A DNA stretch of 64,000 nt from Candidatus Eiseniibacteriota bacterium. Its GTDB lineage: Bacteria; Orphanbacterota; Orphanbacteria; Orphanbacterales; Orphanbacteraceae. Of the stretch, positions 9,481-63,170 are shown in pieces. The notes under the pieces are model-generated. The model saw only the letters and a program-made list of their open reading frames with translations, ran no database searches and was not told the origin of the DNA. Where the stretch lies: assembly GCA_029262235.1 (NCBI GenBank), contig JAJCZU010000008.1:259621-323620 (forward strand). Direction: 5' to 3'. Numbering within the stretch: the first letter of the stretch is position 1; the number at the start of each line of letters is the position of its first letter. Both the position numbers and the translations under genes were made by a program.

Positions 9481-9553
9481 TTTCCGCTCTTTCTCTTCTC
9501 TTCTCTTCCCGCCGCCCTCTTTTCCAACCCTATCTTCGAGCAGAGATGAAACA

Positions 9554-9648
9554 AGCGGTGGAGAAATCGGTTCTCGGATCGGCGAGGCCTCTTTACTTGG
9601 CCATTTGGCCAGGCCGAGCCGTCGAGAGAACTGATTTCTCCAAACGCT
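9554..9648. repeat. Intergenic palindromic element, family 1 (copy A)
   Basis: A long imperfect palindrome. Outer stem GGAGAAATC (9560-9568) pairs with GATTTCTCC (9633-9641). GGTTCTC (9569-9575) pairs with GAGAACT (9626-9632). An internal loop GGAT/TCGA follows, then CGGC-GA-GGCC with GGCC-GA-GCCG, and an apical TGGCC-ATTT-GGCCA hairpin (9598-9611). The same architecture recurs at 39185-39281 with an identical apical TACTTGGCCATTTGGCCAGG but different outer stems. It lies between the 3' ends of two convergent genes and is flanked by pyrimidine-rich tracts (9472-9530, 9649-9697). Confidence 0.75.
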
Positions 9649-9679
9649 CCGTTCTTCTCTTCTCCTATCCCCTCTTATC

Positions 9680-38851: not shown

Positions 38852-38876
38852 ACAAAGTGTCCCATGACGGTGGTGA

Positions 38877-38960
38877 GTGGGGGTGGGTCCTGACGCGCCG
38901 GGACACCCCGATCTCGACGGGGCTCGATCGGGGCCCCGTCCGGCGCGCCACCCACCCCAC
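38877..38960. repeat. Intergenic palindromic element, family 2 (copy C)
   Basis: Stem GTGGGGGTGGGT (38877-38888) pairs with ACCCACCCCAC (38950-38960) with one bulged G. CGCGCCG (38894-38900) pairs with CGGCGCG (38941-38947). Inside, CCCCGATC (38906-38913) pairs with GATCGGGG (38926-38933), and its loop GACGGGG (38916-38922) pairs with CCCCGTC (38934-38940), a possible H-type pseudoknot. The same layout recurs at 59545-59625. A purine tract (38962-39047) follows. Confidence 0.75.
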
Positions 38961-38961
38961 T

Positions 38962-39184
38962 TTTCGAGCGAGAAGAAGGGGGAAGGGAAAAGGGAATAGA
39001 AAGGAGATGGAGAGAAGAAAGAGGAGAAAGAGAATGGAGGGCCAAGGGGAGCCGGAACTGCATGGGAACAGAAAGAGAGGACAGGATCGGGGCGTCTGGG
39101 GACTGACACGCTCCCCGGGCACGACTCCTGACTCGCCTCCAGGGTGCCGGTCCGGAAGTCGGCGAGGAATACGGGACGGCGAGT
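38962..39184. other. Polypurine tract and featureless spacer
   Basis: Between family-2 copy C and family-1 copy B lies a stretch that is almost entirely A/G on the plus strand to about 39047, followed by mixed sequence. I see no coding pattern in any frame. Confidence 0.5.
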
Positions 39185-39281
39185 GAGGCGCGAGGAGTTG
39201 TTCTCCGTATCCCGCTCGGCCTCCGTACTTGGCCATTTGGCCAGGTCGAGCGGGTCGAGGAGAACAACGACCTCGCGCCTC
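39185..39281. repeat. Intergenic palindromic element, family 1 (copy B)
   Basis: GAGGCGCGAGG (39185-39195) pairs perfectly with CCTCGCGCCTC (39271-39281). GTTGTTCTCC (39197-39206) pairs perfectly with GGAGAACAAC (39259-39268). An internal loop GTAT/TCGA follows, then CCCGCTCGGCC (39211-39221) with GGTCGAGCGGG (39244-39254), and the apical TGGCC-ATTT-GGCCA. Copy A at 9554-9648 has the same order of stems, internal loop and apical sequence. Confidence 0.8.
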
Positions 39282-39344
39282 TCCACCATACGTCCCTCTC
39301 CGCTTCCGGAGCCGAACGCCCGACTCTGGGGTATGCTAGCCAGA

Positions 39345-57964: not shown

Positions 57965-59455
57965 CTAACCGTGTTGCAGATTCGCGAGACCGATCGCGTG
58001 CATGCTCTCGAAAACGCGATCGATATCCGCCGGCGTCGTCCGATGCGAGCAGACGGAAATGCGTATCACCACGCGGCCGTTCAGCTGCGTTGTCATGACA
58101 AATGCTTCGCCCGAGAGCTGCAGCTCATCGCAGATCGTCTGGTTCAACCTGTCGATCTCGGCTTCGGTCGCCTCGTCGCGCCGTCCCCCCTGCATGCTCG
58201 CGGGCACGAACCGGAACGAGTAGATGTAGAGGTTCGGCTCATGCAGCACCTCGAAGTCAGGCGACCGCTTCACGAGCTCGTGCATATGCTGCGCGCACTC
58301 GTTGTTCTGCCTGAGCAGCTTGCGATACCCGGCTAGCCCGTACTGCTTGATCATCATCCACACTTTGAGCGCGCGAAAGCCGCGCGACATCTGCGGCCCG
58401 AAGTCGTAATAGTTGAGCCCGTCATACTCCGTGGGGATCGTGCCGCGCAGATAAGGCGCCGACATGGAAAACGACCGTCGCAGGCGCTCGGCATCACGCA
58501 CGAGTACCGCCCCGCATTCGTACGGCACGTAGAGCCATTTGTGCGGGTCGAGAGTGAGCGAGTCCGCGCGCTCCATGCCCCGATACTGGTCGCGTTTTTC
58601 GGGAAGCATCGCGCCGAACGCGCCGCATGCGCCATCCGCATGAAACCAGAGGCCGTATTCCTCACAGACATCCGCGATCTGCTCGATCGGATCGACCACG
58701 CCCACGTTGATCGAACCGACCTGCGCGACCACGCAGAACGGAATCTCTCCCGCCGCAAGGTCCCCCTCAATCGCCCGACGGAGCTCGCCGACGTCCATCG
58801 ACAGATCATCCCGCGACGGCACCGGCACGACCGCGCTCCGTCCGATGCCGGTCATGTCGGCCGCCGCCTTGATCGAAACGTGGCCTTCGTGATCGGACAT
58901 ATAGAGCCGGAAACGGCCGGTTCGCTCCGGCGACTGCAGCCCCGACTCCGCCATGTCGTACTGCGCCGTGTTCCGGAGCGCGGCCGTGAGCGCCGTGAAG
59001 TTCGCCATCATGCCGCCCGACGTAAAGAGCCCGCCGCAATCGACCGGGTAGCCGATCGCTTCCGCGATCCATCGAATCGTGCGCCGCTCGATCTCCGTCG
59101 CCGCCGGCGCCGGCTTCCAGCCCCCGGCGTTCATGTTCACGGCCGCCGCCAGCGCCTCCGCCAGCGTCGCGATCATCGCGCCCGAGCCGTTCACGTATCC
59201 GAAGTAGCGCGGGGAGCCGAGATGCGTTGCGTTCGGCAGGATCTTCTCATCCCAGGCGTCCAGAATCGAGTCCGGGGACTGCCCTTGCTCCGGCAGCTCC
59301 TCCTCGAACGCGCCCGCGACTTCATCCGCCGTCTTTCTCGGATAGACGGGGAGATCGCGAATCGACTCGTAATATTCCGCGATCATGTCGATCGTTCGAT
59401 ACCCGAGCCTGCGGAATTCCTCGGAACTCATGTCAGGGTCGTACCAGTCCGACAC
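57965..59455 (-). CDS. Aromatic-L-amino-acid decarboxylase-like group II PLP enzyme
   Basis: 496 residues. PLP lysine K306 in LTLDPHKWLYVPYECG, D274 in WFHADGACGAF, and the stacking H192 in SDHEGHVSIKAAA. An N-terminal helical domain starts EFRRLGYRTIDMIAEYYE, as in DOPA/tyrosine/tryptophan decarboxylases. It decarboxylates an aromatic or related amino acid; substrate not predictable. GTG 59455 has AAGGAGG 5 nt upstream. Confidence 0.88.
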   Translation of the reverse strand: MSDWYDPDMSSEEFRRLGYRTIDMIAEYYESIRDLPVYPRKTADEVAGAFEEELPEQGQSPDSILDAWDEKILPNATHLGSPRYFGYVNGSGAMIATLAEALAAAVNMNAGGWKPAPAATEIERRTIRWIAEAIGYPVDCGGLFTSGGMMANFTALTAALRNTAQYDMAESGLQSPERTGRFRLYMSDHEGHVSIKAAADMTGIGRSAVVPVPSRDDLSMDVGELRRAIEGDLAAGEIPFCVVAQVGSINVGVVDPIEQIADVCEEYGLWFHADGACGAFGAMLPEKRDQYRGMERADSLTLDPHKWLYVPYECGAVLVRDAERLRRSFSMSAPYLRGTIPTEYDGLNYYDFGPQMSRGFRALKVWMMIKQYGLAGYRKLLRQNNECAQHMHELVKRSPDFEVLHEPNLYIYSFRFVPASMQGGRRDEATEAEIDRLNQTICDELQLSGEAFVMTTQLNGRVVIRISVCSHRTTPADIDRVFESMHAIGLANLQHG

Positions 59456-59544
59456 GCCGGCCTCCTTGGCGATAGGGTCCCCCGGTGAGTTCGAACACTA
59501 CCACATGGCTCCTTGCGCCGAGCTTTCCTGGGCGGCGGGGTGGC

Positions 59545-59625
59545 GTGGCGGGTCCTGTCGCGCCGCGACACCCCACACCTCGTCAGGCTCGGTGCGGGGT
59601 CCCCGTCCGGCGCGCCACCCGCCAC
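59545..59625. repeat. Intergenic palindromic element, family 2 (copy D)
   Basis: GTGGCGGGT (59545-59553) pairs with ACCCGCCAC (59617-59625). CCTGT follows, then CGCGCCG (59559-59565) with CGGCGCG (59608-59614). Inside, CCCCACACC (59571-59579) pairs with GGTGCGGGG (59591-59599) with one A-C mismatch. Relative to copy C, a T-A pair in the outer stem becomes C-G and the inner stem is largely rebuilt. The pseudoknot pairing possible in C is not possible here. A purine-rich tract follows (59661-59712). Confidence 0.75.
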
Positions 59626-59741
59626 GGTCCCGCACAGGACAACCTCAACACCCCTCGCCCGCGAGGGGAAAGGGGAAAGGAGATAAGAGGGGGAAGGAGA
59701 AAGAAAGGGATCGGAGTATCCATTCCCCATCCCCTCCTATC

Positions 59742-60166
59742 CCCTCCTGTTCCTTACTTCGCGCGGAGGCGTCGGCACTGCCGCAGCATAGGACGGGGAA
59801 TGAGTACTCGAATGAATGCGAAACTCCCTCCTCCCGCCCTCGTGCATCGGCCCCCGCAGGCCGAGCCCCATTGGAGGACCGCGGGCACGGTGCCCCTCGT
59901 TCCGAACCCGATGACAGACGGTCCGACAGGGCGAGGCCGAGAGGGAAACCTATCTCCTCCCACTCCCTCCTGTTCCTCACTTCGCGCGGAGGCGTCGGCA
60001 CTGCCGCAGCATAGGACGGGGAATGAGTAATCGAATGAATGCGAAACTCCCTCCTCCCGCCCTCGTGCATCGGCCCCCGCAGGCCGAGCCCCATTGGAGG
60101 ACCGCGGGCACGGTGCCCCTCGTTCCGAACCCGATGACAGACGGTCCGACAGGGCGAGGCCGAGGA
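59742..60166. repeat. 223-bp tandem duplication upstream of top6B
   Basis: Unit 1 (59742-59964) and unit 2 (59965 to about 60166) are nearly identical, with a period of exactly 223 bp. The two differences I saw are TTCCTTAC versus TTCCTCAC and AGTACTCG versus AGTAATCG. Open frames exist on both strands but show low-complexity translations, no ribosome sites, and the same peptide twice because of the duplication. I treat the region as non-coding. Confidence 0.85.
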
Positions 60167-60187
60167 GGCCGATACACGAGGGCGGGA
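60055..60187. repeat. 133-nt foldable element closed by a 21-bp inverted repeat
   Basis: Arms 60055-60075 and 60167-60187 are complementary over 21 bp with a single C-A mismatch (60068/60174). Inside, GGACCG (60099-60104) pairs with CGGTCC (60142-60147), and GGGCA-CGG-TGCCC forms a hairpin (60106-60118). Unit 1 of the tandem duplication has only the left arm. It could be a structured RNA or a small MITE-like element with terminal inverted repeats. Confidence 0.6.
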
Positions 60188-60231
60188 TCTTAGGGGATCC
60201 TCGCATTCACCTCGCGCCATCACCCCAGTCC

Positions 60232-60260
60232 TTGCCTGCGCGCCTGTGCGCGCCTATAAT
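60232..60260 (+). promoter_or_regulatory. Sigma-70 promoter of the topoisomerase VI operon
   Basis: TTGCCT (60232-60237) and a perfect TATAAT (60255-60260) are spaced by 17 nt, 20 nt before ATG 60281. GGAGGG at 60271-60276 is the ribosome site. Confidence 0.8.
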
Positions 60261-60280
60261 CGCCGCGTCAGGAGGGTGAT

Positions 60281-61993
60281 ATGAAGAAGGGTCGTGCGAG
60301 TCAGAAAGGCGGCGGAACCGCGCAGGCGGAACTGTTCGGCGAAGAAACATCAAGTGAGATGGCAGAGCAGAAAACCAGGGGCTCAAGCAAGACGTCGCAG
60401 CTCAAAGTGACGAAGAAGAACCGGACACCGAGCCCGAAAACGCCGAAGTCCAGGGGCGTACACAAGGTCGCGAAGCAGCGCGAGATCTCGGTCAGCGAGT
60501 TTTTCGCGAAGAACCGCCACCTGCTCGGGTTCGATAATCCGTCGAAAGCGCTCCTGACGACCGTGAAAGAGGCGGTCGACAACTCCCTGGACGCGTGCGA
60601 CGAAGCGGGCATCACGCCCGAGATCCACGTCGCGATCACGCAGACACAGGACGACCGCTATCTGGTTTCGGTGCAGGACAACGGCCCCGGGATCACGCCG
60701 AAGGAGATCCCGCGCATCTTCGGATCGCTCCTCTACGGCAGCAAATTCCATCGCCTGCGCCAGTCGCGCGGACAGCAGGGCATCGGCATCTCCGCCGCGG
60801 GCATGTACGGACAGCTCACGACGGGCAAGCCGATGACAATCGTTTCGCGCGTCAAACGGAACAAGGCCCACCGCTTCAGCATCATGCTCGACACGAACAC
60901 GAACCTGCCGGTCATCAAATCGGACGAGGAAGTCGAGTGGGAGTCGAAGCACGGCACGTGCGTCGAACTGGAGCTCGAAGCCAGCTACAAATCGGGCCGC
61001 CATTCCGTTGACGACTATCTATGGCAGATCGCGCTCGCGAACCCGCACGTCGAGATCCACTACACGCCGCCGAAGGGCGACGCACGCACGATTGCGCGCG
61101 CCACGAAAGTGCTCCCGGCCGAAGCGAAGGAGATCAAGCCGCATCCGCGCGGGGTCGAGCTCGGCCAGCTCATGAAGATGCTGAAGGATACGCGCGCGCG
61201 CAATCTGAGCGCGTTCCTGCAGACCGAGTTCAGCAGGGTGAGCGGCAAGGTCGCGAGCGAAATTCTCGCCAAGACGAAGCTGAGTGAGAAAACGAGCCCC
61301 GCGCGCGCGCATCGCGACGCCGCGGAGTCGCTCTACAAGGCCATTCAGTCGACGAAGATCATGAATCCGGCCACGAACTGTCTTTCGCCGATCGGCGACG
61401 ACCAGTTGATCGCGTCGCTCATGGAGCGGCACGACGCGGACTTCTGCGCCGCGATCACGCGTCCGACGGCCGTGTATCGCGGCAACCCGTTTCTGATCGA
61501 AGCGGCCATCGCGTACGGCGGCAAGTCGTTCAGCGCCGACGAGCCGATCAAGCTCTACCGTCTCGCGAACCGCGTGCCGCTCATGTATCAGAAGATGGCA
61601 TGCGCGATTTCGAAGAGCGTGATCGATGTTGCCTGGCGCAACTACCTCGTGCAGCAGAGCCGCGGCGCGATGCCGGTGGCGCCGATGGCGGTGCTCGTTC
61701 ACATCGCGTCGGTCTGGGTGCCATTCACGTCGGAATCGAAAGAGGCGATTGCTTCGTACCCCGAGATCACGAAGGAAGTGAAGCTCGCGGTACAGGAGAG
61801 CGGGCGCAAGGTCGCGACGCACATTCGCCGCGGACGCCGGCTTGCGGACCAGGAAAAGAAGAAGAGCTACATCGAAAAGTATATTCCGCATATCGGCATC
61901 GCACTGCAGGAGATTCTCGGCCTGACCGACGCGAAGCGGACGACGACCGAAAACAACCTGAAGGACATTCTCGAGAAAAGCCGGAAGCTCTAG
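60281..61993 (+). CDS. top6B: DNA topoisomerase VI subunit B
   Basis: 570 residues. GHKL ATPase motifs: E97/N101 in VKEAVDNSLDACDEAG, D133 and G135 in VQDNGPGI, GQQGIGISAAGMYGQLTTGKP (164 onward) with the transducer-facing K of LTTGK. The first ~65 residues are a basic, S/T/K-rich extension not seen in typical archaeal Top6B. The subunit clamps and hydrolyses ATP to drive duplex passage by the A2B2 type IIB topoisomerase. Topo VI is standard in archaea and plants and sporadic in bacteria, suggesting old horizontal transfer. A clear promoter and ribosome site precede it. Confidence 0.95.
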   Translation: MKKGRASQKGGGTAQAELFGEETSSEMAEQKTRGSSKTSQLKVTKKNRTPSPKTPKSRGVHKVAKQREISVSEFFAKNRHLLGFDNPSKALLTTVKEAVDNSLDACDEAGITPEIHVAITQTQDDRYLVSVQDNGPGITPKEIPRIFGSLLYGSKFHRLRQSRGQQGIGISAAGMYGQLTTGKPMTIVSRVKRNKAHRFSIMLDTNTNLPVIKSDEEVEWESKHGTCVELELEASYKSGRHSVDDYLWQIALANPHVEIHYTPPKGDARTIARATKVLPAEAKEIKPHPRGVELGQLMKMLKDTRARNLSAFLQTEFSRVSGKVASEILAKTKLSEKTSPARAHRDAAESLYKAIQSTKIMNPATNCLSPIGDDQLIASLMERHDADFCAAITRPTAVYRGNPFLIEAAIAYGGKSFSADEPIKLYRLANRVPLMYQKMACAISKSVIDVAWRNYLVQQSRGAMPVAPMAVLVHIASVWVPFTSESKEAIASYPEITKEVKLAVQESGRKVATHIRRGRRLADQEKKKSYIEKYIPHIGIALQEILGLTDAKRTTTENNLKDILEKSRKL

Positions 61994-62066
61994 CGCCCTC
62001 GCGAAAGACCGCGCATCGCGCCGGTCGCTTTGACGCGGGGGCCAGGCCAGACAACGAGGGTAAGAC

Positions 62067-63170
62067 GTGGCAACGAAAAAGAAAAACGGCAACAGCATCG
62101 TCGATCAGATTCGCGACGAAGCTTCGAGCGTCGAGACGAAAGTAAACCGCGGCGCGAAGCCGGCCATGAAGTTCCCGATCCGCTCGCTTCAGAACGTCAA
62201 GTACGACCCGAAAAAGGGCTTCTTCGAAATGCGCGGGCGGAAGAAAGAGCGCACGCTCACGGTCAACACCGTGAAGACGTTCGCGCAGACGCTGCGCATG
62301 ATGTCGCTCTCGAAGGAACTGGTCGAAACGGACGATATCGCCACGAAGCGAGAAGCGTACTACGTTTCGAAGAACTGGGAAGAGGCGCGGTTCAAGGAGC
62401 AGCCCGAGTCGGACACGGTGATGGACGACGTCGAGGCGCTGTTCGGCGTGAACCGCGAGCAGCTCGGCTTCATCCCGGAAGAGAAAGGCGGCGACGTGGC
62501 CGGGCAGCTGGTCGTGATCGACAACGACCCCAGCACGGGACAACCGCTCCGTATCGACTGCACGAAGTTCGGCTCCGGCGCGTACTCGATTCCGATTTCC
62601 GTGGAACAGCTCAAGTTCGAAACGAAGGCGAAGTTCATTCTCGTCATCGAAACGGCGGGGATGTTTCAACGTCTCGTGAAGCACAGCTACTGGAAAAGCG
62701 CGAACTGCATTCTGATTTCGATGGGGGGCGTTCCGACGCGCGCGTGCCGGCGCTTCATCCGGCGGCTTTCAGACGACAAGCGCATTCCCGTATACGTTTT
62801 CGTCGACGGCGACCCGTACGGCATTTCGAATATCTACCGCACGCTCAAAGTGGGCTCGGGAAGCGCGGCGCATCTGAACGAATTCTTCTGCGTGCCGAAA
62901 GCGCGTTTTCTGGGCATCACGCCGCAGGACATCATCGACTACGAGCTTCCCACGCATCCGATGAAGGAAGTCGACATCAAGCGGGCGAAGGACGCGCTCA
63001 AGAACGATCCCTTCTTCCTGCATCATAAAGCGTGGCAGACCGCCGTGCGGCAGCTTCTCAAAATGGGCGTGCGCGCAGAACAGCAGGCGCTTGCAAAGCA
63101 CGGCCTGAACTACGTGATCGAAGAGTACCTTCCGAACAAGCTCGCGAACACTAAAGCGTTCCTGCCATAG
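62067..63170 (+). CDS. top6A: DNA topoisomerase VI subunit A (Spo11-like)
   Basis: 367 residues. The winged-helix domain carries TKREAYYVSKNW; by motif the second tyrosine (Y99) is the nucleophile that attaches to the 5' DNA end. The Toprim domain has E195 (LVIETAGMF) and D247/D249 (VFVDGDPYG) for Mg2+. The C-terminus has the conserved VDIKRAKDAL and EEYLPNKL segments. GTG 62067 lies 73 nt after top6B, so the two form an operon. It gives two-nucleotide-overhang double-strand breaks in characterised relatives. Confidence 0.95.
   Translation: MATKKKNGNSIVDQIRDEASSVETKVNRGAKPAMKFPIRSLQNVKYDPKKGFFEMRGRKKERTLTVNTVKTFAQTLRMMSLSKELVETDDIATKREAYYVSKNWEEARFKEQPESDTVMDDVEALFGVNREQLGFIPEEKGGDVAGQLVVIDNDPSTGQPLRIDCTKFGSGAYSIPISVEQLKFETKAKFILVIETAGMFQRLVKHSYWKSANCILISMGGVPTRACRRFIRRLSDDKRIPVYVFVDGDPYGISNIYRTLKVGSGSAAHLNEFFCVPKARFLGITPQDIIDYELPTHPMKEVDIKRAKDALKNDPFFLHHKAWQTAVRQLLKMGVRAEQQALAKHGLNYVIEEYLPNKLANTKAFLP

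Follow-up and report, generated by a model that had tools for sequence, protein, structure and literature searches.

A family of palindromic DNA elements, probably mobile, in Candidatus Eiseniibacteriota and other phyla

What kind of sequence is the structured repeat that lies between a decarboxylase gene and the topoisomerase VI genes of a Candidatus Eiseniibacteriota bacterium? We analysed a stretch of 64,000 nucleotides (the window; GenBank assembly GCA_029262235.1, contig JAJCZU010000008.1, here G000:C8:259621-323620), which is part of a genome of 11 contigs and 4,466,145 bases (G000). The original prediction described two related hairpins in this window, copies C and D, and placed copy D at 59545-59625. 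Copy D is present as described, and the window sequence pairs over one further base on each side, so that the complete hairpin spans 59544-59626. In our opinion it is likely that copy D belongs to a family of non-autonomous mobile palindromic DNA elements, which spread within a genome and are tolerated where they are harmless. The parts of copy D and its relative in the window are as follows.

59544..59626, + strand: copy D, palindromic element, complete hairpin (G000:C8:319160-319250, 86.3 bits with covariance model R1)
59544..59553, + strand: 5' outer arm of copy D, copy-specific bases and the conserved GGGT (pairs with 59617-59626)
59554..59558, + strand: CCTGT, unpaired, the 5' part of the conserved asymmetric internal loop (CCTG unchanged in all 31 copies of the six-genome alignment)
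59559..59614, + strand: middle and apical stem-loop of copy D, interior variable and compensated (fold, covariation, congener ortholog)
59615..59626, + strand: CC bulge (59615-59616) and 3' outer arm of copy D, ACCC followed by copy-specific bases (59617-59626)
38875..38963, + strand: copy C, hairpin with short flanks, sole other family copy found in the window (G000:C8:298495-298583, 90.8 bits)

The element consists of three nested helices and an asymmetric internal loop, GGGT-CCTGTC / CC-ACCC. In copy D, the outer stem joins 59544-59553 to 59617-59626 by 10 pairs, and the middle stem (59559-59569 / 59605-59614) contains a single bulged C. The apical stem (59570-59579 / 59591-59600) has a single A.C mismatch and carries the loop TCGTCAGGCTC at 59580-59590, and the 3' side is interrupted by two bulges, CCCC at 59601-59604 and CC at 59615-59616. 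The predicted fold has -55.2 kcal/mol on the + strand (z -3.56) and -61.0 kcal/mol on the - strand (z -4.75), values equalled by none of 200 shuffles in either case. The loop TCGACARGCTC is reminiscent of a common repeat; none of the papers listed in a literature search was relevant to it.

Between copies C and D, the compensatory change from T-A to C-G in the outer stem is real, as is the extensive rebuilding of the inner stem. The compensatory pairing that had been proposed from these two copies extends to further copies: over 27 pairs in 24 copies from G000, 94.1% of the cells are paired, compared to 83.9 +/- 0.8% with the 3' partners shuffled, and 65 two-sided changes were observed vs 19.0 in the shuffled sets. 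Sliding the partner by 1-3 columns reduces pairing to 29-43%. In 31 copies aligned across six genomes (G000, G001, G012, G009, G010 and G008), 92.8% of the cells are paired vs 74.4% shuffled, and the two-sided changes number 88 vs 28.7. The 16 invariant columns of this alignment all lie inside GGGTCCTG.C and C.CCACCC; both alignments were built on copies picked by their similarity to this core.

The prediction of many copies per genome also held, and the stated ground for refuting it, a lack of further copies, did not apply. Searches with blastn found 27 matches in G000 for either query, copy D or copy C, and model R1, built from 24 blastn-found copies that match it by construction, yielded 29 matches in this 4.47-Mb genome. 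Besides the training copies there are three with an additional hairpin and one that is very divergent though well paired. The congener G001 has 24 R1 matches at E <= 0.01, and five other genomes of the bacterial family have none; these seven family genomes made up our search at the phylum level. A pattern scan of a collection of genome contigs returned 15 stretches, nine of them from the congener and the others from the Solirubrobacterales genome CRAIB_MAG25 (G012), the Actinomycetota SZAS-16 and SZAS-9, a Rokuibacteriota metagenome-assembled genome, Streptomyces and Sandaracinus. At E <= 1, R1 recovered 24 copies in CRAIB_MAG25, three in SZAS-16, two in SZAS-9 and two in the Rokuibacteriota genome. 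The Streptomyces (L082) and Sandaracinus (L092) matches were dropped, as R1 finds no copy in either genome. The family is thus wider than the original prediction supposed and occurs in several phyla.

A combined model (R2), limited to ten scored candidates per genome, detected the family in 16 of 399 genomes belonging to the class of G012. When 18 chosen genomes were searched more deeply, G409 had 40 copies, G012 34, G310 14, G296 and G379 11 each and G214 10, with fewer in the others. The 149 Thermoleophilia copies listed for 17 of these genomes (the Rokuibacteriota row being excluded) are 51-109 bp long, mostly 90, 99 or 102 bp. Carriage by viruses, phages or plasmids was considered and set aside: IMG/VR (two patterns), PLSDB and INPHARED gave no match in searches that are insensitive to diverged copies.

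Several features of individual copies were observed alongside these searches. The additional hairpin, of about 20 nt, stands beside CCTG in three G000 copies (L021 2484-2593, L025 2500-2608, L027 2533-2641) and is absent from G001 at both sites with comparable orthologs. Many copies have, in the ~100 nt downstream, a motif like GCGAAGTGAGGAATC that is followed by a purine-rich stretch (L014 2579, L016 2455, L013 1776, L027 2676 and others); this motif may belong to a longer unit in the window's genus. Copies are also found in tandem arrays, whose periods are ~139, 195 and 168 bp (L106 2961-3464 in G001; L018 455-738 and L014 2476-2733 in G000). The two Rokuibacteriota copies (L118, L122) are alike beyond the core, in arm and flank sequence, and appear to lie within a longer palindromic repeat.

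Some copies lie inside protein genes, which were predicted by a custom codon-usage gene caller. Such copies number 4 of 28 in G000, 1 of 24 in G001 and 15 of the 23 examined in G012. The host genes in G000 encode a Fer4/NrfD fusion (two copies), an Atg22-like transporter and DnaE. Those in G012 encode DnaX, two E2 acyltransferases, Lhr, the ribosomal proteins L10, S9 and S5, FtsZ, RibD and NuoC; all of these have Pfam support, the NuoC domain being matched in two stretches. Predicted genes around the SZAS-16 and SZAS-9 copies (L116, L121, L117, L120) look like spurious high-GC frames and were not counted as hosts; a Pfam scan of those of L121 and L120 gave no match. Translation gives sequences such as AGPVAAGDPPPPPVAKASSG...PTAPPA in forward and AGGAVGGPTPEEALATGGGGGSPAATGPA in reverse orientation. 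In a test based on the flanks only, 16 copies lie between two flanks that score as coding on one strand, and 13 of these copies are in frame; 33 further rows, a few repeated through overlapping loci, were not scorable as coding on both sides. The length is a multiple of 3 for 114 of the 149 Thermoleophilia copies, which is suggestive only, since lengths shared by descent inflate the binomial p-value.

We then asked whether orthologous genes carry the element, aligning five proteins from chosen genomes among G012 and 24 relatives. The element is present in ribosomal protein S9 of G012, G409 and G214 and absent from that of G204, G071 and G145. The same three genomes carry it in S5, and G204, G071, G192 and G304 do not. 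They also carry it in a loop of NuoC, where G053, G105 and G071 have short loops without it; G145, G160 and G077 show other insertions or intermediate loops there that we leave unassigned, and no readable frame was obtained for the loci of G410 and G041. In Lhr, one loop contains the element forward in G012 and reversed in G409, and lacks it in G214, G160, G204, G053 and G077; the long insert of G041 is likewise left unassigned. In RibD, the copy of G012 is reversed and that of G310 is forward. Presence or absence is less clear for L10, whose tail is of low complexity in all genomes compared. The comparison of occupied and insertion-free orthologs, which had been put forward as a check of mobility, gave a positive result in the distantly related Thermoleophilia.

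Within the window's genus, the same comparison gave a mixed picture. G000 and G001 both have the element at most comparable sites, copy D included (its ortholog lies on C756 of G001), with flanks about 82-94% identical. Two of the G000 copies are represented in G001 by a 5' half-element (C93, C760), perhaps through deletion or through loss in a short-read assembly. An empty-site search in G001 gave 6 matches over 5 of 12 flanks: two half-element sites, one occupied site and two at a contig end. Because no clean empty site turned up, mobility in this genus is deduced from the paralogs and from the other taxa. At 8 of 10 orthologous sites (an 11th, truncated at its G001 end, was left out), the interior of the G000 copy resembles a paralog from G000 more closely than its own G001 ortholog. 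This amounts to concerted evolution, whether through gene conversion or through re-insertion.

The outer arms behave differently from the interior. Arm positions were counted outside GGGT/ACCC in 44 copies from the genus and 54 from Thermoleophilia. In both sets alike, positions 1-5 are paired in 55-100% of the copies, and pairing at position 6 falls to background or close to it. Positions 3 and 4 are variable in sequence and nevertheless 89-95% paired, vs 31-54% if arms are swapped between copies. Watson-Crick, G.T, A.C and other combinations at positions 1-5 number 189, 2, 3 and 26 in the genus and 242, 1, 6 and 21 in Thermoleophilia; G.T thus accounts for only 3 of 490 cells. In G310, ten recent copies are nearly identical inside, yet their arm triplet still varies by copy and pairs in nearly all. 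Therefore, the arms seem to be set at or after insertion. A selected folded RNA would be expected to tolerate more G.U than the arms show, and arms that differ by copy yet remain almost strictly Watson-Crick are pointing to a process at the level of DNA. Template switching is reported, in excerpts of two papers, to create and maintain hairpins, to homogenise the arms of inverted repeats and to invert spacers (PMC8794818, PMC8604942).

A second palindrome family, with a core of approximately TACTTGGCCANTTGGCCAGG, also has long arms that vary by copy and still pair (window positions ~9550-9650 and 39180-39290; L010 2820-2930; L013 1405-1700). It is probably the family 1 of the original prediction. 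Its similar arm behaviour suggests a genome-wide DNA-level process.

A mobile palindromic element could account for these observations in the following way. The family unit would measure some 90-110 bp and carry no gene, and it may work as single-stranded DNA or as a cruciform. Recognition would presumably be through the conserved asymmetric internal loop (GGGT-CCTGTC ... CC-ACCC), by a trans-acting DNA-processing activity that we infer and have not found. Copies would spread inside the genome, and insertions would persist where harmless, either between genes or in frame within protein linkers and tails, where the element would read as an Ala/Pro/Gly-rich peptide. After insertion, the interior would be repeatedly overwritten from other copies by concerted evolution. 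Arm pairing would be kept by a DNA-level process, most simply by template switching during replication of the hairpin, or would result from insertion at a palindromic target. Most copies in the window's genome are intergenic and would be old. More tentatively, there may be a class of mobile DNA hairpins, present in several phyla and defined by the conserved asymmetric internal loop, that are moved by something other than a Y1 transposase, acquire short self-complementary arms specific to each site through the insertion itself and provide new in-frame linker peptides for essential proteins.

Some observations weigh against a mobile element. No transposase or other mobilising gene was identified, Y1_Tnp being absent from all six genomes searched, and no clean empty site turned up in G001. 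Persistence at orthologous sites with compensated change could indicate selection for a function. Three of the 16 copies in the flank-based test are out of frame, and the Rokuibacteriota matches are few and weaker (two at E <= 1, one in the deeper search). Furthermore, there is no clear target-site duplication between the flanks: with element ends uncertain, direct sharing of 5-mers was 20 vs 26 +/- 6 shuffled in the genus and 64 vs 47 +/- 8 (a weak excess of ~2 standard deviations) in Thermoleophilia.

We therefore considered what else could produce such a family. A cis-acting RNA element under selection for its structure, such as a stabiliser in the 3' untranslated region, an attenuator or a terminator, would explain the strong covariation and the retention of orthologous positions between congeners, and the 5' side is the one nearer a gene in 17 of the 20 intergenic G000 copies with called genes on both sides. 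However, the variable arms contain hardly any G.U, orientation relative to the upstream gene is split merely 14 to 10, and both orientations occur inside genes. No terminator-like site was detected in 59440-60300, copy D having no T-run after a GC-rich stem. Rfam 15 gave no match in the window at gathering score, and a permissive scan of 59400-59800 returned only matches far below gathering scores. Given the scarce G.T in the arms and the lack of a terminator-like site, an RNA regulator or terminator was not favoured, and we regard it as unlikely. Watson-Crick arms also fit a host DNA site (for nucleoid organisation, supercoiling or recombination) that is selected for its DNA structure and dispersed by duplication, and the invariant internal-loop region across phyla and conserved intergenic placement in the genus agree with such a role. 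But the in-frame invasion, in some lineages, of genes for ribosomal proteins and replication, the absence from relatives and the occurrence in only 16 of 399 genomes of the class fit a parasite better, which makes a host site quite improbable.

The covarying arms without G.U could also be a passive by-product, if template switching makes and polishes palindromes and gene conversion alone spreads their similarity. Opposite orientations within one loop (Lhr, RibD) fit this idea, and hairpin maintenance, arm homogenisation and spacer inversion are all described in the excerpted reports (PMC8794818, PMC8604942). These processes alone cannot place near-identical interiors at many unrelated loci, as seen in G310, and we consider the explanation very unlikely. 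Finally, a hairpin repeat with a conserved CCTG beside its stem recalls the repetitive extragenic palindromic (REP) elements moved by a REP-associated tyrosine transposase (RAYT) of the IS200-IS605 type, and intragenic REPs are known from passages of an earlier study (PMC3733652). However, the search for PF01797 (Y1_Tnp) that found nothing in six of six genomes was positive in 5 of 14 control genomes, and none of the 31 aligned copies has a GTAG or CGTC end tag. Mobilisation by RAYT/IS200 was rejected for the genomes examined because of the missing Y1 transposase, and we give it hardly a chance. Taken together, a non-autonomous mobile element remains the reading that we prefer.

The genes next to copy D are the following.

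57965..59455, - strand: pyridoxal-dependent decarboxylase gene (PF00282, 1.7e-73); copy D lies ~85 nt upstream of its start
60281..61993, + strand: topoisomerase VI subunit B gene, top6B (PF09239, 9.4e-55); its start is ~650 nt from copy D

There is no sign that the decarboxylase or top6 genes are regulated by copy D, which is ~650 bp from the top6B start and not terminator-like. A 216-bp tandem duplication, 97% identical (59726-59941 / 59949-60164), lies between copy D and top6B. The topoisomerase VI B and A genes adjoin in this bacterium (window 60281-63170), an arrangement that is unusual outside archaea.

Palindromic elements inserted in frame are familiar above all from Rickettsia, and how they move is a standing question. 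A family far from Rickettsia, in several phyla, with presence/absence patterns in ribosomal and replication proteins and with arms that are variable yet paired, makes it testable what moves palindromes that lack a transposase, and whether DNA copying, instead of selection on RNA, can give rise to apparent compensatory change. It is also a warning that covariation alone is no proof of a functional RNA.

Among known systems, mitochondrial GC clusters and double-hairpin elements are GC-rich hairpins that are mobile and encode no enzyme; they are like the present family in this respect and unlike it in belonging to organelle genomes, a comparison made by description only and not by sequence. Miniature inverted-repeat transposable elements (ERIC, RUP, NEMIS) are likewise small, non-autonomous, palindromic and mobile according to parts of two papers (PMC10969869, PMC3733652), whereas our family has no conserved terminal repeats at its outer ends and no clear target-site duplication. 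The GTAG/CGTC-tagged REPs and the RAYT REPtrons are hairpin repeats, some intragenic and some clustered, and their stems show frequent G.T pairing, as excerpted from PMC3733652. In contrast, the present elements measure about 90-110 bp rather than 20-40, have no tag, scarcely any G.T in their arms and no Y1 transposase in six of six genomes. Similar, too, are the Rickettsia palindromic elements (RPEs), described in portions of PMC10969869 and PMC3733652 as short, peptide-encoding palindromes that are found between genes and in frame in unrelated protein genes, those of R. conorii with a CGTC end tag (PMC3733652). Both are palindromic repeats in many copies (RPEs of roughly 100-150 bp) with in-frame insertion in unrelated conserved genes, a habit limited to 4 of 28 copies in the window's own genome. 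Unlike RPEs, our family has a different core, occurs in other phyla and shows no CGTC tag in the 31 aligned copies; its outer arms are copy-specific and paired, and its asymmetric internal loop is conserved across phyla. Among the papers listed in searches of the openly licensed PMC literature, we found no earlier description of this sequence, or of such elements in Actinobacteria or Thermoleophilia. It is a new family of the same general kind as RPEs and intragenic REPs, which works like them with neither their tags nor their transposase, and it is set apart from them because of its paired copy-specific arms, its conserved internal loop and its spread across phyla.
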